Below the pieces are notes generated by a model. It searched no databases and was not told the origin of the DNA. It saw nothing but the letters and a program-made list of their open reading frames with translations. The translations under genes and the position numbers were made by a program. A DNA stretch of 64,000 bases, from contig NZ_JARXLA010000003.1 of the NCBI RefSeq assembly GCF_029872155.1, forward strand, positions 124,001-188,000, in the 5' to 3' direction. Every line of letters starts with the position of its first letter. Within the stretch, counting starts at the first letter, position 1. The stretch is from Hyphomicrobium sp. D-2 (GTDB lineage Bacteria > Pseudomonadota > Alphaproteobacteria > Rhizobiales > Hyphomicrobiaceae). This document shows, one piece after another, positions 36,785-60,182 of the stretch.

Positions 36785-37666
36785 ATGTGGGATGTGCTTC
36801 GAGCCGAAACATTGATTTTGCGCATGGGCATGCGGCTATTGGCTGTCGCGGCTGTGATGGGCGTGTGCTCCGTCCATGTCATGGCCGTTCCCAAGCGTGT
36901 TGTGTCGATGAATTTGTGTACGGATCAGCTCGCGATGCTGATGGCGGATGAAGGCCAGCTTGTTTCCGTTTCACACCTTGCCAGCGACCCCGCCAGTTCT
37001 GTGATGGTTACGCAGGCGCAGCGCTATGCTGTGAACCACGGGCTGGCCGAAGAGATCTTCGTTATGGCACCCGACATGGTTTTTGCTGGCACTTATACCA
37101 GTCGAGCAAGCGTTGCGATGTTGAAGCGTCTGGGGTTTCGCGTTGAGCAGTTCGAGCCCGCCAGTTCATTCGAGGACATCGAGAAGCACATTCTGCGCAT
37201 GGGCGAATTGCTGGGGCGGCCGCAACGGGCAAAGGAGCTCATTGCCGAATTTCATCGGCGGCTTGCCGAAGCTCGCGGTGGCGAAGCGCTGAAGCGTCCG
37301 CTCAGCGCGCTGCACTACGCCAACAGCTATACGTCCGGGGCCGGAACGCTCGCGGCGGAGGTGGTTGACGCTGCAGGTCTGCGCAATCTTGGCTCCGAGC
37401 TTGGGCTTACCGGCACTTCGCGCCTGCCGCTGGAGACAATCATCATTTCAAATCCGGATATCATCGCCGGTGAACGGCTGGCCGGTGAAGCGCCCGCTCT
37501 CGCCTATGAGACATTTCAGCATCCGGCGTTGAAAGCCATTCTGGGCGGTGAACCGATGACCGGTGTTGCGGACAAATACTGGGTGTGCGGCGGGCCGTTC
37601 ACGGCTGAAGCCGTCGCCATTCTCAACGCGGCGCGCCGCAAAGTGGTGGGACAGGCGCATCCATGA
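36785..37666 (+). CDS. btuF: Periplasmic cobalamin-binding protein of an ABC importer
   Basis: The 293-residue product has a signal peptide within the first 35 residues (RLLAVAAVMGVCSVHVMA) and a type III periplasmic-binding fold. VPKRVVSMNLCTDQLAMLM is the usual start of BtuF/FecB-like proteins, and TSGAGTLAAEVVDAAGLRNLG and the terminal WVCGGPFTAEAVAIL are typical. GAGG lies 13 bases upstream of the ATG at 36785; the Met at residue 14 is an alternative start. Its stop overlaps the permease ATG. The upstream riboswitch makes cobalamin or cobinamide the likely ligand rather than a siderophore. Confidence 0.88.
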   Translation: MWDVLRAETLILRMGMRLLAVAAVMGVCSVHVMAVPKRVVSMNLCTDQLAMLMADEGQLVSVSHLASDPASSVMVTQAQRYAVNHGLAEEIFVMAPDMVFAGTYTSRASVAMLKRLGFRVEQFEPASSFEDIEKHILRMGELLGRPQRAKELIAEFHRRLAEARGGEALKRPLSALHYANSYTSGAGTLAAEVVDAAGLRNLGSELGLTGTSRLPLETIIISNPDIIAGERLAGEAPALAYETFQHPALKAILGGEPMTGVADKYWVCGGPFTAEAVAILNAARRKVVGQAHP

Positions 37667-38652
37667 AGTTCGGCTTGCTTGTGGGGCTGCTGGTCGGCCT
37701 CGTCGGGGTGCTGTTTTGCGTGTCGCTTGGCGTAGGTCCTGCCGGGCTTGATCCGGTTACGGCGTTTCTCGGCCTGATCGGCATCGGTAATCGTGCGGCT
37801 GAGCTTGTGATGCAGGAAATCCGGTTGCCGCGTGCAATGCTTGCGATTTTGGTTGGCGCCACGTTGGGCTTATCGGGCGCGGTATTGCAGGGCTATCTGC
37901 GCAATCCGCTGGCCGATCCCGGCGTGCTCGGCATCGGCGCATCGGCTTCGCTGGGCGCGGTGCTGGCCATCTATACCGGCCTTGCGGCGCTGTTTCCTCT
38001 CGCTCTCCCGCTCGCGGCGATTGGCGGTGCGCTTATTGCGGTTAGCGCGTTGCTGTTGCTGGCGGGGCGCCATGCAACGCCGCTGATGCTCATCCTTGCG
38101 GGCATTGCAATCAGCTCGCTGGCGACGGCGTTCACGTCATTGGCTCTGAACCTTTCGCCCAACCCGTTTGCGGCGCTTGAAATCGTGTTCTGGATGCTGG
38201 GATCGCTGACCGATCGCTCCATGCTGCACGTCTGGCTGTCGGCGCCCTTCATTGTGCTTGGCTGTGTGCTGCTGTTTTCGCTTGGCCGTTCGTTGGATGC
38301 GCTGTCCCTTGGTCCGGATGTAGCGGCCAGCATGGGCATCCGGCCTGACCGTGTGCGGCTGGTTGCTGTGTTGGGCACAACCAGTGCCGTGGGCGCCGCC
38401 ACCGCGGTTTCAGGCACCATCGGTTTCGTCGGGCTGGTGGTGCCGCATCTGTTGCGTCCGCTGGTTGGTTCGCAGCCGAGCCGTCTGTTGCCGGTCAGCG
38501 CGCTGGGCGGTGCCGCAGCGGTGCAGGCGGCTGACATCGCCGTACGCGTCATTGCGCCGGGACGCGATCTGAAGCTTGGTGTTCTGACCGCGATAGTCGG
38601 CGCGCCGTTCTTTCTATGGCTCATCCTTGAGCAGCGCCGGAGGCTGGTATGA
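37663..38652 (+). CDS. btuC: ABC importer permease, FecCD/BtuC family
   Basis: The 329-residue protein has about ten transmembrane segments and family motifs RLPRAMLAILVGATLGLSGAVLQGYLRNPLADPGVLGIGASASLGA, ATAVSGTIGFVGLVVPHLLRPLVGS and the C-terminal GVLTAIVGAPFFLWLIL. GVLG and PHLLR mark the coupling region. It overlaps both neighbours by ATGA (37663-37666 and 38649-38652), so btuF, btuC and btuD form one translationally coupled operon under the riboswitch. Confidence 0.92.
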   Translation: MKFGLLVGLLVGLVGVLFCVSLGVGPAGLDPVTAFLGLIGIGNRAAELVMQEIRLPRAMLAILVGATLGLSGAVLQGYLRNPLADPGVLGIGASASLGAVLAIYTGLAALFPLALPLAAIGGALIAVSALLLLAGRHATPLMLILAGIAISSLATAFTSLALNLSPNPFAALEIVFWMLGSLTDRSMLHVWLSAPFIVLGCVLLFSLGRSLDALSLGPDVAASMGIRPDRVRLVAVLGTTSAVGAATAVSGTIGFVGLVVPHLLRPLVGSQPSRLLPVSALGGAAAVQAADIAVRVIAPGRDLKLGVLTAIVGAPFFLWLILEQRRRLV

Positions 38653-39422
38653 CGAGCCTCAGTGTCGAGAACTTGCATGTTTCGCTGGGCGGTCGTGAGA
38701 TCGTGCAGGGCGTGTCGTTTGCCGCGAAGGGTGGCGAGTTCATCGGTCTGATCGGCCCCAACGGTTCCGGCAAAACGACACTGTTGCGGGCGTTGCTGGG
38801 TCTGATCCCGTCGACAGGCAGCATCAGCCTGAATAACGTCGATTTACGCACGATGGCGGCGAAACAACGGGCGCTTAATATGAGCTACGTGGCGCAGGAA
38901 CGCGATGCCACCTGGCCGCTATCGGTGGAAACCGTCGTTTCGCTTGGGCGCACTCCGCACATCGCGCCGATGCAGCAGCTGAAAGCCGTGGACCGCGATG
39001 CGGTGGAAGCGGCCATGCGTGAAGCGGATGTTGCTGACATGCGCGAACGGCCAATCACCGAGCTTTCGGGCGGCGAGCGTTCACGCGTATTGATTGCCCG
39101 CGCGTTGGCACAGGCGAGTTCCGTCATGCTTGCCGATGAACCAACGTCAGCGCTCGATCCGGCCCATCAAATTCGCGTCACCGAGATCTTTTCGGGGCTG
39201 GCCGCCAATGGACGACTTGTGCTTATGACGTGTCACGATCTTTCGCTGGCCGCGCGCTTCTGTACGCGGCTGCTGCTGCTCAGTAACGGCAGACTGGAAG
39301 CGGATGGCCCTGCGCGTCAGGTTCTCACCGCTGAGAATTTGCAGCGTGTCTATGGTGTGCAGGCGTTTTTCGGTGAGGATGAAGACAAGCTTGTCGTGGT
39401 GCCAAGAAGCGCGACCGGCTGA
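38649..39422 (+). CDS. btuD: ABC importer ATPase for cobalamin
   Basis: The 257-residue ATPase powers import by the BtuC-type permease. It has the Walker A motif GPNGSGKT (36-43), the signature ELSGGERSRV (139-148), the Walker B segment VMLADEP (160-166) and the switch histidine in LVLMTCHDLS. The length is normal for FepC/BtuD-type proteins. The assignment to cobalamin rests on the riboswitch, not on the ATPase sequence. Confidence 0.92.
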   Translation: MTSLSVENLHVSLGGREIVQGVSFAAKGGEFIGLIGPNGSGKTTLLRALLGLIPSTGSISLNNVDLRTMAAKQRALNMSYVAQERDATWPLSVETVVSLGRTPHIAPMQQLKAVDRDAVEAAMREADVADMRERPITELSGGERSRVLIARALAQASSVMLADEPTSALDPAHQIRVTEIFSGLAANGRLVLMTCHDLSLAARFCTRLLLLSNGRLEADGPARQVLTAENLQRVYGVQAFFGEDEDKLVVVPRSATG

Positions 39423-44049: not shown

Positions 44050-44580
44050 CTAAGCTGCAAACCAGTCAGTATCCTGTCGATCCAGATACAGGCGGAACCA
44101 AGCGGTGAAGCGCTCCGGTTCGTCGCGCGCTTCGACCCTCGTTTCGTCCAGCGTCTTCCAGGCGTAGTTGGAAACTTCGGACGGATCGGCGGCAACAGCG
44201 CCGTCCCAATGGCCGACGAACAGATGCACCACCTCATGTTCAATGAGGCCGTTACCAACATCGGCGCGATAGGTCAGCGAATGCAGAGGCACCAGCGGGC
44301 AATCGATGCCCATTTCTTCGATCAGACGGCGGCGCGCAGCGTCGATCGCCGTCTCGCCGGGACGCGGATGCCCGCAGCATGCGTTGGTCCACAGCCCGCC
44401 TGAGTGGTACTTCTCCGGCGCGCGTTGCTGCAGCAGCATGCGTCCATTGCCATCGTGGATCAGCACTGAAAATGCGCGATGCAGCTTGCCTTCCACGTGC
44501 GCTTCAATCTTGCGCTCGGTGCCCAGCGGCCGGTCGTCGGGGTCGACGAGAATGACGTGTTCCAGCTCGTCGATCATCAC
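44050..44580 (-). CDS. idi: Isopentenyl-diphosphate delta-isomerase, type 1
   Basis: The enzyme interconverts isopentenyl and dimethylallyl diphosphate, the two isoprenoid building blocks. The 176-residue Nudix-fold product has HRAFSVLIHDGNGRMLLQQRAPEKYHSGGLWTNACCGHPRPGE; Cys69 in TNACCGHP fits the catalytic cysteine, His71 is a metal ligand, and RRRLIEEMGI is the Nudix-like helix. Its ATG overlaps the eboF stop by four bases, so it is co-translated with an ebo gene. This makes a dedicated supply of prenyl diphosphate for that pathway likely, since bacteria with the MEP route do not strictly need Idi. Confidence 0.93.
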   Translation of the reverse strand: MMIDELEHVILVDPDDRPLGTERKIEAHVEGKLHRAFSVLIHDGNGRMLLQQRAPEKYHSGGLWTNACCGHPRPGETAIDAARRRLIEEMGIDCPLVPLHSLTYRADVGNGLIEHEVVHLFVGHWDGAVAADPSEVSNYAWKTLDETRVEARDEPERFTAWFRLYLDRQDTDWFAA

Positions 44581-45998
44581 GGCGTGTGCCTCTGTGATGA
44601 CGATGCGCCATCGCTCGCCTGCCGCCCGAAAATATGGTCGAGCATGATCTGCTTCACGGCAGTCGCCTCACATGTGCCCGCGGGCAGAAGGTCCGCCCGC
44701 GACGACATGATTACCGGGCTGCGCGCTTCCGGCGTATCGGCGCGACCATGCGAGCCGCGCACCAGCGATGCATCCAGCGGAATCACGTCTAGCAACGATC
44801 TGAAGCCAAGCTTACGTTTCAACAGGCGCCACCCTACTGCAAGTTTCGGGGCTTTGATTGCCGGATCGAGAAACAGTTCGACCGGATCGTAGCCCGGCTT
44901 GCGGTGAATCTCCACGCAGCGGGCGAAATCCGGCGCGCGCGCGTCATCCAGCCAATAATAATACGTGAACCACGCGTCGGGTTCGCTGATGGCGACGAGT
45001 TCGCCCGAGCGCTCATGCGCCAGCCCGTTGGCGCGCTTTTCTTCCTCGCCCCAGACTTCGGCCACGCCATCCAGCTTCAGCAGCAGCGCGCGCACTTCAT
45101 CAATATGCGCAGGGTCTGGCACATACACATGCGCCACCTGATGATCGGCCACCGCGAATGCCCGCGACTGTGGCGGGTCAAGCAATTCGCCGCCCTGTTC
45201 CACGCGCACCGCTAGCAGCCCCGCTTCACGCAGCGCGCGGTTGATGTGCACGGGTTTGTTGACCGGCACGATGCCGTACTCGGATAGAACGATCACATCG
45301 CGGCCGGACGCAGCGGCCGCATCGATCAGGCTGCCCGCTACCGCATCGATCTCAGCCAGATCTTTGGCGATCGACGGATCGTCCGGGCCGACGCGCTGCA
45401 GGCAGTAATCGAGATGGGGCAGATAAACGAGCGTCAGCGTCGGATCGCTTAGCTCCATCACATGCAGCGACGCGTCCGCAATCCAGCGCGAGGACGCTAC
45501 CGTCGTCGCGGGGCCCCAGAATGAGAACAGCGGGAAGGGGCCGAGCTTTTCCGTCAGCTCATCGCGAAGCTGCGAAGGCTGCGCGTAGCAATCCGGCAGC
45601 TTGCGGCCATCGGCCTTGTAGATCGGGCGCGGCGTGACAGCGATGTCCGCGTCCGACGCCATATTGTACCACCAGAACATGTTGGCGCAGGTGAACGCGG
45701 GATCGAGCCGCTTGCCGGCATCCCACACGCGCTCGCCGCTCAGCAGGCGGTTGGACTGACGCCAGAGCCAGATTTCGTAAAGATCGCGGAAGAACCAGCC
45801 GTTCGCCACCGCGCCATGCCCGCCGGGCGGCAACCCGGTCAGGAACGTCGCCTGCGCGGAGCAGGTTACGGCGGGCGTCACAGTACGCAAGGGGCGCATT
45901 GCGCCCGCTTGCGCGAACCGTTTCAGGTTGGGTGTGTGATCGCCAATGAGTTCCGGCGTAAGGCCGACGATATTGAGAACCAGGAGAGACTGCATCAC
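44577..45998 (-). CDS. eboF: EboF-like alkaline-phosphatase-superfamily hydrolase
   Basis: The 473-residue protein belongs to the nucleotide pyrophosphatase/phosphodiesterase group. It opens with LVLNIVGLTPELIGDHTPNLKRFAQAGAM, then TPAVTCSAQATFLTGLPPGGHGAVANGW, LPHLDYCLQRVGPD and VIVLSEYGI, and HQVAHVYVPDP. These match the metal and nucleophile segments of the superfamily, but the first metal aspartate is Asn (LNIVG) and the usual S-D-H-G is S-E-Y-G. Such proteins are the F member of ebo clusters. No signal peptide is seen, so it is probably cytoplasmic. It overlaps idi and lies 25 bases after the cytochrome gene. Confidence 0.85.
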   Translation of the reverse strand: MMQSLLVLNIVGLTPELIGDHTPNLKRFAQAGAMRPLRTVTPAVTCSAQATFLTGLPPGGHGAVANGWFFRDLYEIWLWRQSNRLLSGERVWDAGKRLDPAFTCANMFWWYNMASDADIAVTPRPIYKADGRKLPDCYAQPSQLRDELTEKLGPFPLFSFWGPATTVASSRWIADASLHVMELSDPTLTLVYLPHLDYCLQRVGPDDPSIAKDLAEIDAVAGSLIDAAAASGRDVIVLSEYGIVPVNKPVHINRALREAGLLAVRVEQGGELLDPPQSRAFAVADHQVAHVYVPDPAHIDEVRALLLKLDGVAEVWGEEEKRANGLAHERSGELVAISEPDAWFTYYYWLDDARAPDFARCVEIHRKPGYDPVELFLDPAIKAPKLAVGWRLLKRKLGFRSLLDVIPLDASLVRGSHGRADTPEARSPVIMSSRADLLPAGTCEATAVKQIMLDHIFGRQASDGASSSQRHTP

Positions 45999-46023
45999 TG
46001 ACGATTGTTGCGGCTGAGCCGAC

Positions 46024-46476
46024 TCACTTCTTGAGCGTATTGATGAAGGCGATGATCTTCAGCATCTGATCCTGCGTCATGCCGCGCTTGGCGAACGGAC
46101 GCATGGCACCAGCGGCACCGGAGTGAATGATCTCGAACATGCCGACGTCTGTGTTGGCGCGCGGATTGACAACCGCGTCGTCGTTCAGCGCTGGGCCCAT
46201 GCCGCCTGAACCGTCCGGCTTATGACAGACCTGACAGTTGGCGTTGTAGAGCTTTTGACCGGCAGCAATTTCATCGGCGTTGCCGTTGTAAGGGTTTTCG
46301 CCCGTCTCATGGAATTTCTTCACGGCGTCCGTGAACTCTTCCCCCTTGATCGGATCCATGTCGATCGGGGAGTCGTCAAGCGCACTTTTGAACTCCACTG
46401 CAACTGCGGGAACAGTGGCAGCGAAGGCAAACGCAACAAACGCGGCAGCAGAAAGGTGGCGAAGTTTGACCGGCAT
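46024..46476 (-). CDS. Periplasmic cytochrome c of the cytochrome cL (MxaG/XoxG) type
   Basis: The 150-residue product has a signal peptide (LRHLSAAAFVAFAFAATVPAVAV) and one haem site, CQVCH (81-85). AVKKFHETGENPYNG before the haem and GMFEIIHSGAAGAMRPFAKRGMTQDQMLKIIAFI after it line up with the MxaG of this same window (AVKQFLETGVNPYNE; GLFETIYGGAQGMMGPH). It is therefore a cL-like paralogue, shorter than MxaG. Such cytochromes accept electrons from PQQ dehydrogenases. The next gene upstream on the same strand encodes a PQQ-sugar-dehydrogenase-like protein, a natural partner. Confidence 0.88.
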   Translation of the reverse strand: MPVKLRHLSAAAFVAFAFAATVPAVAVEFKSALDDSPIDMDPIKGEEFTDAVKKFHETGENPYNGNADEIAAGQKLYNANCQVCHKPDGSGGMGPALNDDAVVNPRANTDVGMFEIIHSGAAGAMRPFAKRGMTQDQMLKIIAFINTLKK

Positions 46477-46786
46477 GGAGGCGGAACTTTCCTAAAGTGC
46501 GCCCGGGATCGGTGCACGTTCAAGATAGAGTGCGCCCAGGAAACTGAAGGCCAATTGCGTGGCCGATTGCCTGGGTTGAGCACACTTCACAGTGCAGCCG
46601 CGGAATAGGTGGCACCCGTTTTCCGAACAGAAGCACAATCGATTAAAACCACTGCAATCACCAAGTGTCATGCCGTGGTCTTGAGGTTCAGATGTGGGGG
46701 CAGGGCCCAGACTCTACAAGCATAGCTTTCTGCAAGCATCAGCTCTTCAAGCAATAGGCCCTGCCGCCGAAGCGATCGGCTAGCGA
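46477..46786 (-). other. Intergenic region upstream of the cytochrome gene
   Basis: The 310 bases contain no gene I can support. GGCAGGGCC (46699-46707) and GGCCCTGCC (46757-46765) are perfect complements separated by 49 bases and lie just after the stop of the PQQ-dehydrogenase-like gene. They may end or protect its transcript. The rest should contain the cytochrome promoter. Confidence 0.45.
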
Positions 46787-48205
46787 TTACTTCTTCGTCT
46801 TGGCGACTTCGGCGCCGGCAGGCACCTTGTCAGCAGCTACGACACGCCACAGAGCGCCCGGCGGGTTAGCCAGCGGGCCCTTGTCGTCCGTGTAGAAGCA
46901 GTCGCAGTTCACAGCCAGAACGGTGCCGTCTTCGTCGACGTTACCGGAGGTGAACTGCAGCGAGGTCTGCAGCAGTTCCTGGATCTGCCACTTCTTGCCA
47001 TCCCAGCCAGTGCCGAACACGCGGCCCGAGCACCAGTCACCGGTCAGGTACACGTTGTTCATGCCGGCATAGTTGGCAACGCCAAGACCCTGAACCGAGC
47101 AACCCCAGCCGTCCTTCAGCTTCTCTGCACCCGGATATGGCTCCTGATGCGGATATTCTGCGACGGGCAGCGTGCCAACGATCGGGCACTTGTCATCAGG
47201 ACCCAGCGACGGGTGACAGTGCGTGCCCATGTTGAACTTCCAGCCGTAGTTCTGGCCACCCTTGCTGTCTGCAGGCTGCCAGTTGATCTCTTCCCAGTGG
47301 TTCTGACCAACTTCAGCGATGAACAGCGCGCCCGTCTTCTTGTCGAAGTCGAGCGAGTAGGGGTTGCGCAGACCGTAGGCCCAGATCTCAGGGCGTGCGC
47401 CCATGTGAATCTTGGAGAAGCCTTCTTCGGTGATGCCGAACAGGGCCATCATGCGGTCCTGATAGGCCTTCGCGAATGGGTTGGTCGGCGGGATAGAGTA
47501 GGCAACATCGTCAGGCGTGTTGATGTCGATGCGCAGGATCTTGCCCCACAGCACCTTGGTGTCCTGACCGGCGTTGAGGGGGTCGCCCTCCCAGCCAGCG
47601 TCACCCTTGCCGATGTAGAGATAGCCATCGGGACCGAACGCAATGCCACCGCCGTAGTGGTTATAGTACGGCTGCGGGATGTTCATGATCACCTTGACCG
47701 ACTTGTTGGCCTGTTCGACCGTCACTTCGTCGGGGCTGCTGGGATCAACAGTGTAGCGGGCGATGATGTGCGCGCCATTGAACGGCAAGGACGAATAGCT
47801 CACGAAGAAGTGGCCATTTTCCTTGAAGTTCGGGTGGAACGCCACGGACCAGAGGCCCTGCTCAACGAAGCCCGTCTGGACTTCCGAGCCGAGAGGCGTG
47901 TTCTTGGTCAGGTCGAGGAACGGAGCTTCAAGAGTCTTGCCGTCCTTGACGACTTTGATCTTGCCGACGCGTTCGACGACGAAGATACGACCCGAACCGT
48001 CAAATGCCGAAGCGACGCCAACAGGATCGTTGAAACCATCAGCAACCTTGACGAGGGCGATCTTCGGATCACCTGGAAGCTTTCCAGGCGGCCGTGCGAC
48101 CTGCGATGGCTCTGTCGGCACAGTCTGGGCGACCGCAGCGGTCGTTCCCAGTGCTCCAACGAGGGCCATGCCCATCGAAGCGGCATGCAGCAACCGCATT
48201 CTCAT
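46787..48205 (-). CDS. Secreted PQQ-dependent sugar dehydrogenase-like protein
   Basis: I chose the ATG at 48205 because GGGAGA lies nine bases upstream; the open frame continues to 48289 without such support. The 472-residue product has a signal peptide (MRLLHAASMGMALVGALGTTAAVAQ) and a six-bladed propeller of the soluble glucose/aldose dehydrogenase family (GSDH). VADGFNDPVGVASAFDGSGRIFVVERVGKIKVV, YNHYGGGIAFGPDGYLYIGKGDAG, RPEIWAYGLRNPYSLDFD and GGQNYGWKFNMGTHCHP are family segments. The codon use is strongly biased to C-ending codons, as in mxaF, suggesting high expression. The substrate is unknown; sugar oxidation is only the family default. Confidence 0.85.
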   Translation of the reverse strand: MRMRLLHAASMGMALVGALGTTAAVAQTVPTEPSQVARPPGKLPGDPKIALVKVADGFNDPVGVASAFDGSGRIFVVERVGKIKVVKDGKTLEAPFLDLTKNTPLGSEVQTGFVEQGLWSVAFHPNFKENGHFFVSYSSLPFNGAHIIARYTVDPSSPDEVTVEQANKSVKVIMNIPQPYYNHYGGGIAFGPDGYLYIGKGDAGWEGDPLNAGQDTKVLWGKILRIDINTPDDVAYSIPPTNPFAKAYQDRMMALFGITEEGFSKIHMGARPEIWAYGLRNPYSLDFDKKTGALFIAEVGQNHWEEINWQPADSKGGQNYGWKFNMGTHCHPSLGPDDKCPIVGTLPVAEYPHQEPYPGAEKLKDGWGCSVQGLGVANYAGMNNVYLTGDWCSGRVFGTGWDGKKWQIQELLQTSLQFTSGNVDEDGTVLAVNCDCFYTDDKGPLANPPGALWRVVAADKVPAGAEVAKTKK

Positions 48206-48707
48206 AGAGCGTTCTCCCATTTCATAAGTCTCTGAAAGTCGCCCTGCGATCGGATGTCTTCGATCTGTCGCGTAGCGACCATTTTTCACGTTGCGAACGA
48301 AATCGCATCCAATTACTCAGCTAACCGAGTGTTTGTGGAGCGCCTCGCCACGCAAGCCGAACGCTAGTGAATGAATGTCACTGCGGCAATGGACCCCCTC
48401 ACGAATTGCACAAATTGACCTCGTTTTGGCTGACGAGGTAAGCATTTTTGCTGTTTATTCCTTCGATTTTTTCCAAACATTGAAACAGTCCAACGCGTGC
48501 ACCGTGGCCACGCGCGAAAAGATGAAGCAAAACCGTTGCTTGCCCCTGGCAAACCGCGCATGATTAAGGCCGGTTGCTTCCGTCTTTGTACCGCGCAGAC
48601 ACGAATGCTGGCGCTGTCCAAGATGCGAGAAGTAAAGCCAGCCCGGTTTGTTTCTGGGTCAAAAATACCACTGCAAATGCAGGGTGTTGGAAGGGGAAGC
48701 GGCGAAA
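48206..48707 (+). other. Divergent promoter region between the PQQ-dehydrogenase-like gene and eboD
   Basis: About 500 bases hold no convincing gene. ACCTCGT (48418-48424) and ACGAGGT (48433-48439) form an inverted repeat, followed by an AT-rich stretch (48440-48470) that could be a promoter. Both arms of the ebo locus (minus-strand redox genes and plus-strand eboDECAB) probably start here. Confidence 0.45.
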
Positions 48708-49922
48708 GTGGTTTCATCGGTCAGCGATGCACTAGCGAAAATCGAATGCACCGGCGAAGAGCGGGCTTTCGTTCAGCGCTTCACGGTGCCATACGAGTTT
48801 CCGGTCTATTTCACGCGGGATCTATTTTCGGAAGGAAATCAGATCCTTGCCGAATCCATCGAACGATCGGGTTCCGGTTCGCGGCGGCGCACAATATTTT
48901 TTATCGACGAAGGCCTCGTGCGCGAGATGCCCGATCTCAAGCGGCGCATCGCAGCCTATGCTGCTGCGCATGCCGATGCGATGGAATTGGTCGGGCCGCC
49001 GGAGCTCGTTCCGGGCGGAGAGCAATGCAAGAACGATCCCGCGCTGGTTGAGCGCCTGCAGCGCCTGCTCGTGAGCTACAAGATGGATCGCCATGCCTAC
49101 GTGGTCGGCATCGGCGGCGGCGCGTTGCTGGATCTGATTGGCTATGTGGCCGCAACAACCCATCGCGGCATCCGGCACATTCGCGTTCCTACCACGGTTC
49201 TGGCGCAGAACGATTCCGGCGTCGGTGTGAAGAATGGCGTCAACGCGTTCGGCTTCAAGAATATGCTGGGCACGTTTGTGCCGCCCGCTGCCGTCATCAA
49301 CGATTCAGCCTTCATTGATGTGCTGCCAGGACGCGACAAGCGCGCCGGCATGGCCGAAGCGGTAAAGGTGGCATTGATCCGCGACGGCGCATTCTTCGAC
49401 TGGCTTGAAGAGAAGGCCGAGGCGCTGGCGCTATTCACCTCTGAACCGCTCGACCGTCTGATCCGCCATTGCGCGCTGCTGCACATGCGGCAGATCTCCG
49501 GTGGAGGCGATCCGTTTGAGCGCGGTAGCGGCAGGCCGCTGGATTTCGGTCATTGGTCCGCGCACAAGCTGGAGGCGCTGTCCAACTATGATCTGCGCCA
49601 CGGTGAGGCGGTTGCCATCGGTGTCGCCATTGATACGCGTTATTCCGTTCTGGCGGGCCTGATGCCTCCGGGCGGAGACGAGCGCGTCCGGGCGCTGCTG
49701 GAACGGCTGGGCTTCAATCTGTGGCATCCGTCCTGCGATATGCGCAACGATGCGGGCAAGCGCCTGCTGTTGGCGGGTCTTGAAGAGTTCCGCGAGCATC
49801 TGGGCGGTCAGCTCACCATCACACTGTTGAATGATCTCGGCATCAGCGTGGATGTGCATGAAATGGACCACGCGCTGATCGATGAAGCGATCGAATGGCT
49901 ACGTCCACAGGACGGTAATTGA
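48708..49922 (+). CDS. eboD: EboD-like 3-dehydroquinate synthase homologue
   Basis: I chose the GTG at 48708 (VVSSVSDALAKIECTGEERAF) because AGGGGA sits ten bases upstream; the frame is open to 48648. The 404-residue product has the sugar-phosphate cyclase fold: GIGGGALLDLIGYVAATTHRG is the NAD-binding glycine loop, VPTTVLAQNDSGVGVKNGVNAFGFKNMLGTF the substrate loop, and HWSAHKLEALS and LRHGEAVAIGV carry metal-binding histidines. It is longer than AroB and lies in an ebo operon, so it probably cyclises a sugar phosphate other than DAHP. The stop overlaps the next start. Confidence 0.9.
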   Translation: MVSSVSDALAKIECTGEERAFVQRFTVPYEFPVYFTRDLFSEGNQILAESIERSGSGSRRRTIFFIDEGLVREMPDLKRRIAAYAAAHADAMELVGPPELVPGGEQCKNDPALVERLQRLLVSYKMDRHAYVVGIGGGALLDLIGYVAATTHRGIRHIRVPTTVLAQNDSGVGVKNGVNAFGFKNMLGTFVPPAAVINDSAFIDVLPGRDKRAGMAEAVKVALIRDGAFFDWLEEKAEALALFTSEPLDRLIRHCALLHMRQISGGGDPFERGSGRPLDFGHWSAHKLEALSNYDLRHGEAVAIGVAIDTRYSVLAGLMPPGGDERVRALLERLGFNLWHPSCDMRNDAGKRLLLAGLEEFREHLGGQLTITLLNDLGISVDVHEMDHALIDEAIEWLRPQDGN

Positions 49923-51124
49923 TGCGGCTGTCGCTGCCCGGTACGCCACACCTCACCTATTGCACCAACATCCACGCCGGTGAGACCTGGGAGGAAATCT
50001 ATGCCGCGCTCCGTCGCAATCTGCCGGCGGTCAAGCAGCAGGTTTCTCCCGATGCACCGATGGGTGTCGGCTTGCGGCTTTCGGCAGCCGCGGTCGATGA
50101 TCTCGCTGATCCCGAACGGTTGCGGGAATTAAAGGCGTTTCTGGATGCCGCCGGCTTCTACGTCTTCACCGTCAACGCGTTTCCCTACGGCACCTTCCAC
50201 GCCACGCGCGTGAAAGAGCAGGTCTATGAGCCCGACTGGCGCACGCAGGAACGTCTGCGCTTCACCGATGCGGCGGCGTACATTTTGAGCGTGCTGCTGC
50301 CCGACGGAATGGCTGGCAGCATCAGCACCGTGCCGGGCGGCTTCAAGCCCGCTATCGCAACCGAACCCGACATCGCCGCTATCGTCGATAACCTGATCGC
50401 TTGCGCCGCGCAGCTTCACGCGTTGAGCGAAGCGACCGGCAAGCACATCAGCCTGGCGCTTGAGCCCGAACCGCACTGCTTCCTTGAGACAACCGACGAG
50501 GCGATCGCGTTCTTCAACGGTCGGGTGTTTGCGCCTGCCGCCGTAAAAGCTTTCGCGCATGCCGCCAACATCGACGACCTCATGGTGGCTGAGCAGCGTC
50601 TGCGGCAGCATCTGGGCGTCTGTTTTGATGTCTGTCATGCCGCTGTCGAGTTCGAAGATCCCGTCGCCAGCATGGCGCGCCTGCGCGAGGCCGGCATCGC
50701 CGTGCCGAAAATCCAGCTCAGCGCTGCGCTGCGCGTTCCCACGCCCGACGCGGAGGCAGCGCGGCTTCTGCTGGCGTTCGACGATGGCGTCTATCTGCAT
50801 CAGACCGTGGCCCAACGTGGTGGCGAGCTGACCCGCTACCTCGATCTGCCCGAGGCAATCGCCGCGCTCGATGGCAGTGCACAAGCCACGGAATGGCGCG
50901 TGCATTGCCATGTGCCGTTGTTCTGGCAGGCGTCGGGCGTGCTGCAATCGACCCACGCGCCGCTGATCGATCTGCTGGCTGCATGCAGGGAAAGCGCACT
51001 CGCGCCTCACCTCGAAGTTGAAACCTACACCTGGGATGTGCTGCCCACCGATCTGCGGGCTGGCGACATCAGCAACGATATCGCGCGGGAGCTGCAATGG
51101 GTTCGCGAGCAACTGGGCGCATAG
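49922..51124 (+). CDS. eboE: EboE-like TIM-barrel protein (xylose isomerase/AP endonuclease fold)
   Basis: The 400-residue product starts MRLSLPGTPHLTYCTNIHAGETWEEIYAALRRNLPAVKQQV, a typical EboE opening. The ATG at 49922 shares one base with the eboD stop (TGATG). Candidate metal ligands are in LALEPEPHCFLETTDE, CFDVCHAAVEFED and VHCHVPLFW. Isomerase or epimerase activity on a sugar-like substrate is likely from the fold; no reaction has been shown that I know of. It overlaps eboC by 28 bases. Confidence 0.88.
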   Translation: MRLSLPGTPHLTYCTNIHAGETWEEIYAALRRNLPAVKQQVSPDAPMGVGLRLSAAAVDDLADPERLRELKAFLDAAGFYVFTVNAFPYGTFHATRVKEQVYEPDWRTQERLRFTDAAAYILSVLLPDGMAGSISTVPGGFKPAIATEPDIAAIVDNLIACAAQLHALSEATGKHISLALEPEPHCFLETTDEAIAFFNGRVFAPAAVKAFAHAANIDDLMVAEQRLRQHLGVCFDVCHAAVEFEDPVASMARLREAGIAVPKIQLSAALRVPTPDAEAARLLLAFDDGVYLHQTVAQRGGELTRYLDLPEAIAALDGSAQATEWRVHCHVPLFWQASGVLQSTHAPLIDLLAACRESALAPHLEVETYTWDVLPTDLRAGDISNDIARELQWVREQLGA

Positions 51125-51969
51125 GCCCATGGCGCACTGCGCTGCTGCTGGGGCGCGTTTCCAACCTGCCGACGGTGTGGAGCAACGTGATCGCCGCCAG
51201 TGCGCTGGCCGGCGGCGGCGCACTGCTATCCACGGCCGTCACCGCGTTGGCCATTTCGCTGATGTACGTCGGCGGCATGTATCTCAACGATGCCTTTGAT
51301 CGCGAGATCGATGCGCGTGAACGTCCCGAACGTCCCATCCCCTCTGGCAGTATCGCGCCGGAGCTGGTGTTTGCGGTCGGCGCGGCTTTGCTGGTCCTCG
51401 GCATCGTGCTGCTGGCATTTGAGCGCGAGGAGGCGGGCCTTGCGGGGCTTGCGCTGGGCGGTGCCATCATCCTTTACAACTGGCATCACAAGGGCAATCC
51501 GGTTGCGCCGTTCGTGATGGGACTATGCCGCGCGCTGGTTTATGTCGCCGCGGGGCTGGTGGTGTTCCCGGACGTGCAGTTCGATGTGCTCGTTCCGGCC
51601 GCCGCCGTGCTGGCTTACGTTGCCGGGCTCACGTTCACGGCGCGGATGGAAAACGTTGATCGTGTCACGAGCCTGTGGCCGCTTTCGCTGCTGGCGGCGC
51701 CTGTTATTGTTGCGGCCGTCGCCGGAGCATTCTCGCCGCTCGCATTGCTGATCTATGTCATGCTTGCGGCGGTCGGCTGGCGTGTTGCAACGCTTCTGCG
51801 GCGGCGCGCTACGGGTGACGTATCGCAGGCGGTCGCATTGCTTATTGCAGCAATTTCGCTGGTTGATGCACTATTCGCGACCACGACGGGCGTGCATTAT
51901 GCGGCGATCGCATGCCTCCTTTGTTTCGGGCTCACGCTGGTTCTGCAACGGTTCGTACCCGCGACCTAG
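51097..51969 (+). CDS. eboC: EboC-like UbiA-family prenyltransferase
   Basis: The 290-residue membrane protein has about eight to nine hydrophobic segments and the UbiA aspartate motif in NDAFDREIDARERPERPIPSG. The second acidic motif is not obvious; the region reads ARMENVDRVTS, so the polar acceptor may be unusual. GGGAG lies upstream of the ATG, inside the end of eboE. UbiA enzymes attach prenyl chains to aromatic or sugar acceptors at the membrane, and idi in the opposite arm of the locus could supply the precursor. In Nostoc the ebo cluster is needed to bring a scytonemin precursor to the periplasm. Confidence 0.9.
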   Translation: MGSRATGRIGPWRTALLLGRVSNLPTVWSNVIAASALAGGGALLSTAVTALAISLMYVGGMYLNDAFDREIDARERPERPIPSGSIAPELVFAVGAALLVLGIVLLAFEREEAGLAGLALGGAIILYNWHHKGNPVAPFVMGLCRALVYVAAGLVVFPDVQFDVLVPAAAVLAYVAGLTFTARMENVDRVTSLWPLSLLAAPVIVAAVAGAFSPLALLIYVMLAAVGWRVATLLRRRATGDVSQAVALLIAAISLVDALFATTTGVHYAAIACLLCFGLTLVLQRFVPAT

Positions 51970-52093
51970 ACCATTGCTGCTTTGGACCCTACATCCGAAA
52001 CGGTGCAACATCGGTCTCATGCAAGGCGGCAGTGCATCGCGATTGCGGAAACACGCGATCGCTCCGGAATACGCGAGCGGGGGAAGCTGAACG

Positions 52094-53017
52094 ATGCAGG
52101 ATGGATCTGAAATCGCAACCCGGATGGGCTTGCTGCGCGGATGGCTAACTGCGCGCGTCAGTCCGGAAGCGCTCCAGTGGCTGGATGATCAGGCCGCAAA
52201 AATCGCAGCCGCTCCCGATGCGCCCGTGCTCACCATGTCGATCGGGCTGGCGCCGCGTAAGGTCGGTAAAGCGCCGCTTGATCTGACAGCACAGGAATTG
52301 GCAGTCGCTGCAGCGGTGCGGCCGGGCTTCAATGCGCGCGACTGGTCGGCTGATCAGGCGGCCCGGGTTTTCCTGCTGCTGGCGAGCGCTGATTCATCGG
52401 CGGGCGCAGAAGGCTTCGCTGCGCGGCTTGATCGCCTGTTCCGCTCCGGCGAAATCGGTGAGCAGCTCGCGTTGCTGCGCGGCCTGCCGCTGTATCCGCG
52501 CGCGGAAGCAAATCTTGCGACGGCAGGTGAGGGCATTCGCTCCGCTGTGCAGCCAATCTTCGAAGCCGTTGCGCACAACAGCCCTTATCCCGCCGAGCAG
52601 TTCAGCGAGGCGATGTGGAACCAGATGGTTGTGAAGACGCTCTTCATCAACAGCACACTGGTTCCCATCGTGAAGCTGGACGAGCGCCGCAACGCTGATC
52701 TGGCGCGCATGCTGGTCGACTATGCGCACGAGCGCTGGGCGGCGGGCCGCGTTGTCAGTCCCGAGCTGTGGCGTTGTGTTGGGCCGTTTGCCGGCAATCG
52801 CTATCTGGACGATCTGGCTAGGGTGTTCCGATCCGCGGATCGGGACGAGCATCGCGCGGGTGCGCTGGCTTTGTTTGAATGCGCGACGCCCGAAGCACTT
52901 GCACTGCTTGATGCTGACGGACCGCTGACCGCATCGATCCGTTCTGGCGAATTGACCTGGGATCGGCTGTATGATGCCGGCATCGCCAAGCTATCCGATC
53001 ATCCCAGCCTGCCCTGA
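52094..53017 (+). CDS. eboA: EboA-like protein
   Basis: The 307-residue soluble protein has no signal peptide or membrane helix and is rich in alpha-helix-forming residues. VAAAVRPGFNARDWSADQAARVFLLL, AEQFSEAMWNQMVVKTLFINSTLVPIVKLDERRNADLARMLVDYAHERWAAGR and WRCVGPF are features I associate with EboA proteins. No catalytic motif is evident and its function is unknown. GGGGGAAG lies about eight bases upstream of the ATG. It follows eboC after 124 bases and precedes eboB in the same direction. Confidence 0.82.
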   Translation: MQDGSEIATRMGLLRGWLTARVSPEALQWLDDQAAKIAAAPDAPVLTMSIGLAPRKVGKAPLDLTAQELAVAAAVRPGFNARDWSADQAARVFLLLASADSSAGAEGFAARLDRLFRSGEIGEQLALLRGLPLYPRAEANLATAGEGIRSAVQPIFEAVAHNSPYPAEQFSEAMWNQMVVKTLFINSTLVPIVKLDERRNADLARMLVDYAHERWAAGRVVSPELWRCVGPFAGNRYLDDLARVFRSADRDEHRAGALALFECATPEALALLDADGPLTASIRSGELTWDRLYDAGIAKLSDHPSLP

Positions 53018-53108
53018 AGCGGATAATATCACAAACAGCATGTGTCGGCGCTGCGCATCTGATACGATGTTCGTCGAGCAGGCATGAAAGAACAGGACGG
53101 AATTTCCG

Positions 53109-53999
53109 ATGCCCTTTATCGACCCGCATGCGCACATGATCTCGCGCACCACCGATGATTACGAAGCGATGGCCGCAGCGGGCATCGTGGCTGTGATCGA
53201 ACCGGCTTTCTGGATTGGGCAGGCGCGCACCAACGTCGGCAGCTATCGCGATTATCTTTCTCACATTCTCGGCTTTGAGCGCTTTCGCGCCAGTCAGTTC
53301 GGCATCCAGCATTACTGCTGCATCGGTCTCAATTCGAAGGAGGCCAACAACGAGGCGCTGGCCGAAGATGTGATGGCAATTCTGCCGGAGTTCGCCACCA
53401 AGGAAGGCGTGGTGGCCATCGGCGAGATCGGCTTCGACGAGCAAACCGCGCTTGAGGAAAAGTATTTCCGCCTGCAACTCGATCTGGCGCGCGAACTGGA
53501 TCTTCCGGTCATGGTGCACACGCCCCACCGCGATAAGAAGAAGGGCGCATCACGATCGATGGACATCATCATCGAGCACAATCTCGCGCCCAACCGGGTT
53601 GTGATCGATCACGTCAACGAAGAGACCGTGCGCGAAGTAACGGAGCGCGGTTTCTGGGCTGGGTTCTCCATCTACCCGCATTCAAAAATGACCGCGCCGC
53701 GTATGCTGGAAATCGTCCGCCAGTACGGCGCCGATCAGCTGATCGTCGATTCCGCGTGCGACTGGGGCATCTCCGATCCGCTGTCGGTACCGAAGACGGC
53801 GGAGCTGCTGGCAGCGGCGGGCGTATCGGCTGACGATGTGCGCAAGGTGACCTATGGCAATGCATTGGCCGCGTACGGCCAGAGCGGTCAGATGAGCGAG
53901 CAGGACTGGGCCAGTACGGCCGTGGATCAGCGCTCGCGTTACGATGGAAATACAATTCTGCGTGGCGGGCAGGATCCGCGCGTCGAAGAGAAAAGCTGA
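53109..53999 (+). CDS. eboB: EboB-like TatD-family metal-dependent hydrolase
   Basis: The 296-residue TIM-barrel protein has the amidohydrolase ligands: His7 and His9 in FIDPHAHMIS, Glu in GEIGFDEQT, His in VMVHTPHR, His in VIDHVNEE and Asp in VDSACDWG. This is the TatD layout, but the protein is longer than TatD nucleases and closest in context to the hydrolase of ebo clusters. It is the last gene of the eboDECAB arm and is followed by a weak hairpin. Hydrolysis of an ester or amide in the ebo product is possible; DNase activity is unlikely in this setting. Confidence 0.88.
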   Translation: MPFIDPHAHMISRTTDDYEAMAAAGIVAVIEPAFWIGQARTNVGSYRDYLSHILGFERFRASQFGIQHYCCIGLNSKEANNEALAEDVMAILPEFATKEGVVAIGEIGFDEQTALEEKYFRLQLDLARELDLPVMVHTPHRDKKKGASRSMDIIIEHNLAPNRVVIDHVNEETVREVTERGFWAGFSIYPHSKMTAPRMLEIVRQYGADQLIVDSACDWGISDPLSVPKTAELLAAAGVSADDVRKVTYGNALAAYGQSGQMSEQDWASTAVDQRSRYDGNTILRGGQDPRVEEKS

Positions 54000-58695: not shown

Positions 58696-59601
58696 ATGAG
58701 CAAGACATCAAAATTCCATCAGTCGGCCTTCGCGTTTTTGTCGGTTGCCGTGATGGCGGGAAGCTTCACCGTTCTGTCCGCAACGGCAGAGGAAGCTAAG
58801 AAGAAAACAACTCCGCCAGATCCGTCTGTCCTCCGCATTTGTGCTTCCGAGGTTGAGAAGCCTTACTCAATGCGTGACGGGAAAGGATTCGAAAACAAAA
58901 TTGGCAATGTTCTTGCCGAAGCAATGGGCAAGCGCGCCAGGTTCGTTTGGACGGATAAGCCTGCGATTTATCTCGTTCGGGATCAGCTCGACAAAAACAA
59001 CTGCGATGTTGTGATTGGCCTCGACACAGGTGATGAGCGGGTTCTGACGTCGAATCCCTATTATCGCGCGCCTTACGTGTTCGTAATGCGTTCGGACTCT
59101 CCGCTCGACATTACGAGCTGGGACAGCCCGGACATTCTCAAGGCATCGAAGATCGGTATGTCTCAAGACAGCCCGGCGCAGGTGATGCTTGAGAAGCTTG
59201 GTCTTTTCAATTCGAACTTCAACTACATGAAGTCGCTGGTCGGCTTCAAGAGCAAGCGTAACCAGTACATTCGTGTCGATCCGCAGCGCTATGTCGATGA
59301 CGTTGCCTCCGGAAAGGCCGATTTTGCCGTGGTGTTTTCTCCTGAAGTCGCACGTTATGCCAAGGATCGCGGCAATGCGTTGAAGCTCGTTGTAGTTCCC
59401 GACAACGCAACGCGCAGCGACGGACAGCATCTGCCTTTCCACTTTGATCAGTCGATCGCAGTGCGCAAGGATGACAAGGAGTTGCTGGCTGAGGTCAATG
59501 CTGCGCTAGAAAAAGCGAAACCCGAAATCGAGAGCATCCTGAAGGAAGAAGGCATTCCCCTGGACGAGCTCGCGAAGACCCCAGAGGGACGTCAAGGATG
59601 A
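58696..59601 (+). CDS. mxaJ: Methanol oxidation system periplasmic protein MxaJ
   Basis: The 301-residue product has a signal peptide (AFAFLSVAVMAGSFTVLSATAEEA) and the fold of periplasmic solute-binding proteins: VLRICASEVEKPYSMRDGKGFENKIGNVLAEAMGKRARFVWTDKPAIYLVRDQLDKNNCDVVIGLDTGDERVLTSNPYYRAPYVFV is the typical first lobe. MxaJ is needed for active methanol dehydrogenase and probably helps assemble it; XoxJ is its counterpart in xox clusters. Its position between mxaF and mxaG is the standard order. The stop overlaps the mxaG ATG. Confidence 0.95.
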   Translation: MSKTSKFHQSAFAFLSVAVMAGSFTVLSATAEEAKKKTTPPDPSVLRICASEVEKPYSMRDGKGFENKIGNVLAEAMGKRARFVWTDKPAIYLVRDQLDKNNCDVVIGLDTGDERVLTSNPYYRAPYVFVMRSDSPLDITSWDSPDILKASKIGMSQDSPAQVMLEKLGLFNSNFNYMKSLVGFKSKRNQYIRVDPQRYVDDVASGKADFAVVFSPEVARYAKDRGNALKLVVVPDNATRSDGQHLPFHFDQSIAVRKDDKELLAEVNAALEKAKPEIESILKEEGIPLDELAKTPEGRQG

Positions 59602-60182
59602 ATAAACTTACGAAGATAGTGCTTGTTGGTCTGTCAATGGTAGTTCTGCCGGCAGCAGCGATGGCATTGGATCCTTTCCGTAACACCATTACGGGCGATA
59701 TTCTCGACTTGAATATTGCGCCAAAGGATGATCCCGAGCCGCCTGCCGTCAAGCAGTTCCTTGAAACCGGTGTCAACCCGTACAACGAAAAGGCTGAGTG
59801 CTTGCCGCTGGGCAACTTCCTCTACCTGTCGTCGTGCTCCGGCTGTCACGGGCACGTTGCTGAAGGTAAGGTTGGACACGGCCTTAACGACGCGTACTGG
59901 ACCTATCCGAAGAACCGGACTGACAAGGGCCTCTTCGAGACGATCTATGGTGGCGCTCAGGGCATGATGGGCCCGCACAGCGATAAGTCGATCAACGAGA
60001 TCCTGAACATCATGGCTTGGATTCGCCATCTGTACGCTGAGGATCCCAAGAAGGCCCGTTGGTTGACACCTGAGCAGCGTGAAGTGTTCAAGCCCTATGT
60101 CGAAGACAAGAGCGTTGAGCATGGCACCGCTGAACTGGCGCAGGCTGTACCGGCCGATGTGTGCGGAACGATGCGCCATTAA
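59598..60182 (+). CDS. mxaG: Cytochrome cL, electron acceptor of methanol dehydrogenase
   Basis: The 194-residue precursor has a signal peptide (KIVLVGLSMVVLPAAAMA) and one haem motif CSGCH (80-84). AVKQFLETGVNPYNEKAECLPLGNFLYLSSC and GLFETIYGGAQGMMGPHSDKSINEILNIMAWIRHLY are cytochrome cL signatures. It takes electrons singly from the reduced PQQ of MxaF and passes them to a small cytochrome c. It is overlapped with mxaJ and followed by mxaI. Confidence 0.96.
   Translation: MNKLTKIVLVGLSMVVLPAAAMALDPFRNTITGDILDLNIAPKDDPEPPAVKQFLETGVNPYNEKAECLPLGNFLYLSSCSGCHGHVAEGKVGHGLNDAYWTYPKNRTDKGLFETIYGGAQGMMGPHSDKSINEILNIMAWIRHLYAEDPKKARWLTPEQREVFKPYVEDKSVEHGTAELAQAVPADVCGTMRH

Follow-up and report, generated by a model that had tools for sequence, protein, structure and literature searches.

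Linkage of an ebo gene cluster with idi and a propeller-cytochrome pair in Hyphomicrobium sp. D-2 and related bacteria

The window analysed here is a stretch of 64,000 nucleotides from Hyphomicrobium sp. D-2 (contig NZ_JARXLA010000003.1, positions 124,001 to 188,000), and its subject is a locus at window positions 44050-53999, in which an ebo gene cluster, a little-studied set tentatively credited with carrying small molecules from the cytoplasm, lies together with idi and with genes for two putative redox proteins. A first-pass annotation had described a complete ebo set, and all six ebo functions were indeed recovered within 44577-53999 by profile searches against NCBIfam and Pfam. The coordinates of the open reading frames (ORFs) agree with the strands then proposed, eboD-E-C-A-B being on the plus strand and eboF on the minus strand; the overlap of idi with eboF described there is real and amounts to 4 bp, and the redox genes placed between the two arms were found there as a cytochrome of cL/c551i-like type and a GSDH-like six-bladed propeller. 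The locus is a cassette of nine genes whose two arms diverge, with eboD-E-C-A-B on the plus strand and the genes for the propeller, the cytochrome, EboF and Idi on the minus strand:

44050..44580, minus strand: idi, type I isopentenyl-diphosphate isomerase (NCBIfam PRK03759, 166.5 bits, cut-off 127)
44577..45998, minus strand: eboF, type I phosphodiesterase/nucleotide pyrophosphatase family (PF01663, 222 bits; syntenic among relatives)
46024..46476, minus strand: mono-haem cytochrome c, cL/c551i-like (MoxG model, 106 bits, cut-off 148)
46787..48289, minus strand: GSDH-like six-bladed beta-propeller (PF07995, 110 bits; start uncertain)
48290..48647, no strand: inter-arm region, the presumed site of both promoters
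48648..49922, plus strand: eboD, sugar-phosphate-cyclase-like (PF01761/PF24621; PRK06203, 566 bits; start uncertain)
49919..51124, plus strand: eboE, TIM-barrel (NF035939, 464 bits, cut-off 250)
51097..51969, plus strand: eboC, UbiA-superfamily prenyltransferase (PF01040, 69 bits; NF035940, 111.5 bits, cut-off 250)
52094..53017, plus strand: eboA, predicted all-helical (NF035938, 162 bits, cut-off 50)
53109..53999, plus strand: eboB, TatD/amidohydrolase-like (PF01026, 68 bits; relatives 68-99% identical)

Further overlaps join eboD to eboE (4 bp) and eboE to eboC (28 bp). The nearest named locus is that of Hyphomicrobium sulfonivorans S1, whose EboB is 99% identical; Hyphomicrobium zavarzinii ATCC 27496 has the locus as well.

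The linkage of these genes was followed through a sample of 103 genomes of the family, 19 of which have EboA. A close orthologue of the propeller (GSDH type 1, defined by a score over 750 bits with at least 70% identity, the next match scoring 153 bits) is present in 16 of these 19 genomes and in none of the 84 that are EboA-negative, the genome of the window being included, and the cL-like cytochrome adjoins it in 16/16. If a second kind of propeller, GSDH type 2, is counted also, the figure rises to 17/19; in the exceptional genome, G024, the type 2 gene adjoins ebo and is 63% identical to that of locus L049. The order sample comprised 397 genomes, of which 14 have EboA over cut-off (again including the genome of the window, with six supplied by its own family). 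GSDH type 1 (E<=1e-60) was found in 11 and type 2 in six, the line for the latter (over 550 bits) having been set after the scores, with their gap from 284 to 555, had been viewed, and with a query from an EboA-positive genome. One or other type is present in 14/14 EboA-positive genomes versus 0/383 others (weaker type 2 matches, with 229-284 bits and 44-48% identity, in four order genomes, two of them EboA-negative, are left uncounted). The divergence of the propeller, the cytochrome, EboC to EboF and Idi tracks that of EboB (r 0.76-0.89, n 12-15, 0/2000 permutations in each case), and the linkage persists despite changes in gene order (for example, in L022, L030 and L047). The association suggested in the first-pass annotation holds in related genomes, strictly for the GSDH-like gene and the cytochrome and less strictly for idi, and the coupling of ebo with the redox genes is not due to chance. 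When the ORFs around ebo were clustered, every other gene was limited to at most 7 of 29 family or order loci and at most 19 of 80 named loci; in L060 and L061, nothing was seen.

Beyond the family, the named loci are the best 80 of 520 relatives obtained by scanning genome contigs with an EboB alignment, and are therefore biased to near relatives. Fifty of them, each with all six ebo genes, were counted; the other 30, in which at most five ebo genes were detected and whose contigs are in many cases short, were set apart. The loci are not independent: Granulosicoccaceae, Roseobacter-related bacteria and Bradyrhizobium recur, the last with four loci, two of which share identical stretches. Fisher tests on these loci consequently exaggerate the evidence, and the one for pqqC counts one genome twice. 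Propellers occur in 30 of the 50 loci (12 with GSDH type 1, 10 with type 2, four with both and four, those of Bradyrhizobium, with a weakly ScyE-like protein beside a cytochrome). An electron carrier was found in 29 of the 30 loci with a propeller versus none of the 20 without; over all 80 loci, the counts are 38/41 versus 3/39 (among the 30 loci set apart, 11 have a propeller, nine of these with a carrier, and three have a carrier only). The 50 loci hold 33 propeller-carrier pairs, all on the same strand and with a median gap of 196 bp. In a Methylococcaceae locus outside the 50-locus count, L091, where four ebo genes were detected, a ScyD/ScyE-family propeller (176 bits, cut-off 80) is fused to a cupredoxin, and the gene is thus predicted to encode propeller and carrier in one chain. 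A ScyD/ScyE gene also lies beside ebo in two Streptomyces plasmid loci, that is, in 2/4 actinomycete loci examined (on plasmids, 11 regions were inspected out of 51 records with EboB). Among the loci examined, the pair is met mainly in Pseudomonadota, and since ebo loci without it exist, its partnership with ebo is optional. No close relative of the GSDH protein turned up when viral contigs were searched by pattern.

The idea that the combination belongs to methylotrophs was not borne out, since loci of Roseobacter-related bacteria, Granulosicoccaceae, betaproteobacteria and others also have GSDH-like genes next to ebo. Within the flanks fetched, mxa genes adjoin ebo in 3/19 EboA-positive family genomes (that of the window, G039 and G033); in G036, mxa lies about 14 kb from ebo.

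The propeller protein has a signal-like N-terminus, as judged by eye, and many relatives begin about 28 codons later. Its predicted structure is a beta-propeller with a predicted local distance difference test score (pLDDT) of 81, in which the N-terminal 51 residues are poor. A Foldseek search returned the hedgehog-interacting protein (HHIP) first (8e-25) and the sugar dehydrogenase 3das, which is bound to pyrroloquinoline quinone (PQQ), at 1.5e-17; sequence searches agree. HHIP is not known to contain PQQ. The PF07995 match and the fold match together place the protein in the six-bladed GSDH fold. His210, Arg307 and Asn308 (as numbered in the first row of the alignment) are invariant in 20 sequences, and these are positions that we take to be of the kind contacting PQQ in soluble glucose dehydrogenase. 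A Gly-Pro of the aligned sugar dehydrogenases has become Gly-Gln, and with the ScyD/ScyE model NF033206 the protein reaches 19.7 bits, under the cut-off of 80.

The neighbouring cytochrome carries CxxCH and a conserved GAM (in an alignment of 15 relatives) and, by eye, a signal-like N-terminus. The closest solved chains are those of cytochrome c551i/cL (E 4e-20). Since MoxG/cL is the best model but the score is 106 bits against a cut-off of 148, the protein is cL-like and not MxaG itself. Cytochromes c551i and cL are acceptors of periplasmic electron transfer, and those of the cL type serve quinoproteins.

Among the ebo products, EboE and the EboA domain exceed the NCBIfam cut-offs, and EboD, EboB and EboF match at the level of superfamilies. 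EboC has its family as the best model yet scores 111.5 bits against a cut-off of 250, which makes it a divergent member; the profile searches support each of the six assignments. With a stricter EboA-family model, EboA scores 227 bits against a cut-off of 320. Its predicted structure has a pLDDT of 89.6; in a fold search with it, no hit reached E 0.001, the top ones being ARM/HEAT-like helical repeats. The possibility that EboD is a duplicate AroB was ruled out by its score with the AroB model (215 bits, cut-off 305) and by a separate AroB (360 bits) on contig C8; on sequence grounds, EboD is a predicted relative of the sugar-phosphate cyclases, distinct from the housekeeping AroB.

The assignment of EboC to the UbiA type is borne out by the residues described for the ebo prenyltransferase Ubi-297/EboC, a farnesyltransferase (PMC9235831). 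In the window protein, N64, D65, D68 and D72 (NDxxDxxxD), Y57 and R145 are invariant in 17 aligned sequences; compared with the description in the text of that paper, the Asp-rich motif (DxxDxxxD), the Tyr near position 56 that replaces an Arg of UbiA, and Arg145 are all kept. Homologues of EboC farnesylate quinoline acids in membranes (PMC9235831). An EboC of the Bacteroidota, that of Aureibacter, is 30% identical to the window protein over 197 residues. Idi is the sole Idi over cut-off in the host genome; it is over cut-off in 18/19 EboA-positive family genomes and, in 15, adjoins ebo or the GSDH-eboF arm.

Three known systems can be compared with this locus. In the scytonemin locus of Nostoc punctiforme (Klicki 2018, PMC6282210), ebo lies beside a gene for a secreted protein that acts in the periplasm, ScyE, to which the propeller may correspond by analogy. 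Every ebo mutant tested in Nostoc keeps the scytonemin monomer cytoplasmic, whereas the scyE mutant exports it; the authors posit that periplasmic ScyE dimerises the monomer oxidatively, and they discuss a prenylated cyclitol-type export carrier (PMC6282210). Unlike ScyE, the partner in the window is GSDH-like, falls under the ScyD/ScyE cut-off, and comes with a dedicated cytochrome and idi. The ebo operon of eustigmatophyte plastids and bacteria (Yurchenko 2016, PMC5133447) has the same six families, with DECABF among the orders listed; the window differs from it in having eboF on the opposite strand and in the addition of the propeller, the cytochrome and idi, and in the main text of that paper the word cytochrome is absent. 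The pair itself resembles MxaF/MxaG and the soluble sugar dehydrogenases in joining a propeller to a cL-like cytochrome; unlike those, the window propeller is six-bladed and GSDH-like with PQQ use unproven, and its cytochrome is under the MxaG cut-off. The combination had been thought undescribed, and a literature search, with most subscription papers and preprints outside it, found no paper in which ebo is coupled to a GSDH-like gene, to a cytochrome or to idi. As far as this literature goes, the ebo cluster is known and its conserved extension by propeller, carrier and idi is new.

The explanation that we prefer, at a probability of roughly 45%, is built by analogy with scytonemin export: the ebo genes would make a prenylated, cyclitol-like carrier or product that brings a metabolite into the periplasm, where the propeller and the cytochrome would oxidise it. 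Idi may keep the isoprenoid pool balanced and so supply the prenyl part. EboD would convert a sugar phosphate to a cyclitol, which EboE, EboB and EboF would modify and to which membrane-bound EboC would add the prenyl group, EboA perhaps being a scaffold. The product would be the carrier, or be needed for the carrier, that moves a small and probably aromatic metabolite across the inner membrane. A secreted propeller would then oxidise this metabolite in the periplasm and pass the electrons to the cL/c551i-like cytochrome and on to the respiratory chain, a step modelled on the role proposed for ScyE in scytonemin synthesis. Of this picture, the analysis demonstrates which genes are present, that their linkage is conserved and that propeller and carrier occur together closely; secretion, the catalytic steps, the carrier role and the substrate are inferred.

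Several observations weigh against this explanation. The GSDH-like protein is without an established cofactor, for which reason its role as an oxidase is by analogy; the activity of ScyE is likewise a proposal, given without an assay in the available text of PMC6282210. EboC and EboA fall under the cut-offs of strict full-length models. Two of the 19 EboA-positive family genomes, G063 and G082, lack a close GSDH, be it type 1 or type 2 (in the former, a fragmented draft, the contig with ebo starts within eboD; the latter has a reduced ebo cluster). By tblastn, 20 of the 50 six-gene loci, some on short contigs, have neither propeller nor carrier; no such pair was found in 15/15 ebo loci of Bacteroidota or in the alphaproteobacterial plasmid loci L160, L161, L163 and L165. 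A propeller without a detected carrier occurs in L108 (one of the 50) and in L077 and L120 (among the rest), and a carrier without a propeller in L064, L083 and L087. Idi is present in 29/84 EboA-negative family genomes as well, and idi lies beside just 22/50 full six-gene loci; with Idi in nearly every EboA-positive genome of the family and in these others too, idi is a frequent but not an exclusive partner.

The reduced cluster of G082 (L034) was also seen as L087, from a Hyphomicrobium metagenome-assembled genome. GSDH is absent from it, eboE is matched over a shortened length, and of a cytochrome there is only a similar stretch of 58 residues; an alkyl-sulfatase-like gene lies nearby (L087:2541-4640).

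A less likely explanation, in our estimate, is that the GSDH-like protein is a genuine PQQ-dependent dehydrogenase of sugars or cyclitols and has the cL-like cytochrome for its acceptor, that ebo makes its substrate or anchors it, and that in Hyphomicrobium the whole serves methylotrophy. The GSDH family and fold, the three invariant residues and the habit of cL-type cytochromes of serving quinoproteins favour this, as do the mxa genes next door and quinoprotein-like genes that adjoin eboB in G036 (L027:9810-12699, a second quinoprotein set with a PQQ-dehydrogenase-like gene, 41% to mxaF, and a MoxJ-like gene). PqqC is present, moreover, in 16/16 family genomes with type 1 GSDH. Across the wider set, the host does not make PQQ wherever the protein is kept: among hand-picked long or informative loci (L047 and L117 being the same contig), in drafts where absence is not proof, pqqC is missing in 13 of the 22 distinct genomes that were tested and have GSDH at ebo (five of the 13 are 93-99% complete), and in 6/24 tested genomes when type 1 alone is taken. 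Nor is PqqC commoner with GSDH at ebo than without it (9/22 versus 13/17 tested genomes, pqqC being missing in 4/17 of the latter). The 13/22 figure indicates that the propeller family can persist without PQQ synthesis. The evidence is therefore mixed: PQQ is available to the Hyphomicrobium copy in every case and a GSDH fold was found, as the name PQQ dehydrogenase in the first-pass annotation implied, yet that name is premature. A PQQ enzyme of methylotrophy had been the first expectation, which the distribution of pqqC and the HHIP match have weakened without disposing of it.

The host genome has two PqqC genes (G000:C3:211976-212680 and G000:C2:92419-93123), as do several relatives. The export of PQQ itself by the ebo system was also considered, since EboC homologues prenylate quinoline-2-carboxylates; it was dropped because 17/39 distinct tested ebo genomes are without pqqC and 60/84 EboA-negative family genomes have a PqqC match.

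Another explanation, which we hold to be similarly doubtful, is that the pathway ends with the ebo product itself: this would be a cyclitol or aromatic compound bearing a prenyl group, which after oxidation would be released to the surface and there act as a protectant or deter grazers. An isoprenoid-cyclitol compound has been proposed (PMC5133447), homologues of EboC prenylate quinoline acids (PMC9235831), and PMC6282210 relates that nematodes could feed on P. fluorescens NZI7 once its ebo genes were mutated. Against it, no gene-specific product was seen in Nostoc, where the pathway halts at one and the same monomer in every ebo mutant (PMC6282210). That the redox pair and idi are mere neighbours, brought together by chance or by the transfer of mobile elements, fits the patchy spread of EboA and the frequency of idi without ebo but is very improbable and already disfavoured for the redox pair, given the order-wide co-occurrence, the linkage that outlives changes in gene order, and G197, which keeps a type 1 GSDH on a different contig from ebo.

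Several other genes were found beside ebo. In 4/4 actinomycete loci examined, an inositol-3-phosphate synthase is part of the ebo cluster and EboD was not detected, and a cyclitol head group fits this. A sugar phosphate isomerase is present in the three annotated ones, and ScyD/ScyE with a multicopper oxidase in two. In several loci, the gene after eboB encodes a membrane protein with a VTT domain, DedA/TVP38-like (L052:11315-11989; L102, L113, L116, L128, L130 and L137). The VTT-domain family includes lipid scramblases, and such a protein would be in keeping with a carrier of lipid nature. Near ebo, 19/80 named loci encode a small membrane protein of the TMEM220 family (for example, L122:4493-4885). 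A VioB-like and ferritin-like pair adjoins ebo in cyanobacterial, Bacteroidota, alphaproteobacterial and betaproteobacterial loci and is a possible second accessory module. The positions are:

L162:8252-9394, L182:6408-7562, L184:6187-7374 and L183 near 6173: actinomycete inositol-3-phosphate synthase
L123:953-3852, L076:1296-4388, L158:16981-20262, L159:8073-11133, L164:4017-7099 and L173 near 10497-11762: VioB-like/ferritin-like pair

In the window itself, a methanol dehydrogenase cluster lies downstream of the locus, with a PQQ alcohol dehydrogenase (mxaF), MoxJ and MoxG over cut-off, the MxaG being at 59598-60182 (MoxG model, 197 bits); MoxR-like and DUF58 genes belong to the same cluster, and mxaI was recognised by eye. 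Upstream are a dihydropteroate-synthase-like gene, found by profile search, and a BtuF/FecCD-type ABC importer with binding protein, permease and ATPase (36785-39422).

A bolder and more speculative form of the preferred explanation would make ebo a general carrier system with an exchangeable periplasmic oxidase module. This module would consist of a PQQ-independent propeller (GSDH type 1, type 2 or ScyE-type) and a dedicated carrier (the cL-like cytochrome, a second cytochrome or a fused cupredoxin), and the head group of the ebo product would be a cyclitol, built in actinomycetes by an inositol-phosphate synthase that replaces EboD. As far as the available texts tell, studies of ebo mutations have dealt with one cyanobacterium and, tangentially, one pseudomonad. 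The recurring partnerships in other bacteria make the function of ebo easier to test, and the propeller-carrier partner offers a biochemical handle, because the carrier reports electron flow and so lets mutant fractions be screened for the substrate. If the exchangeable module is real, its propeller oxidases, linked to respiration and completing the metabolites exported by ebo, would make up a class of their own that is new.

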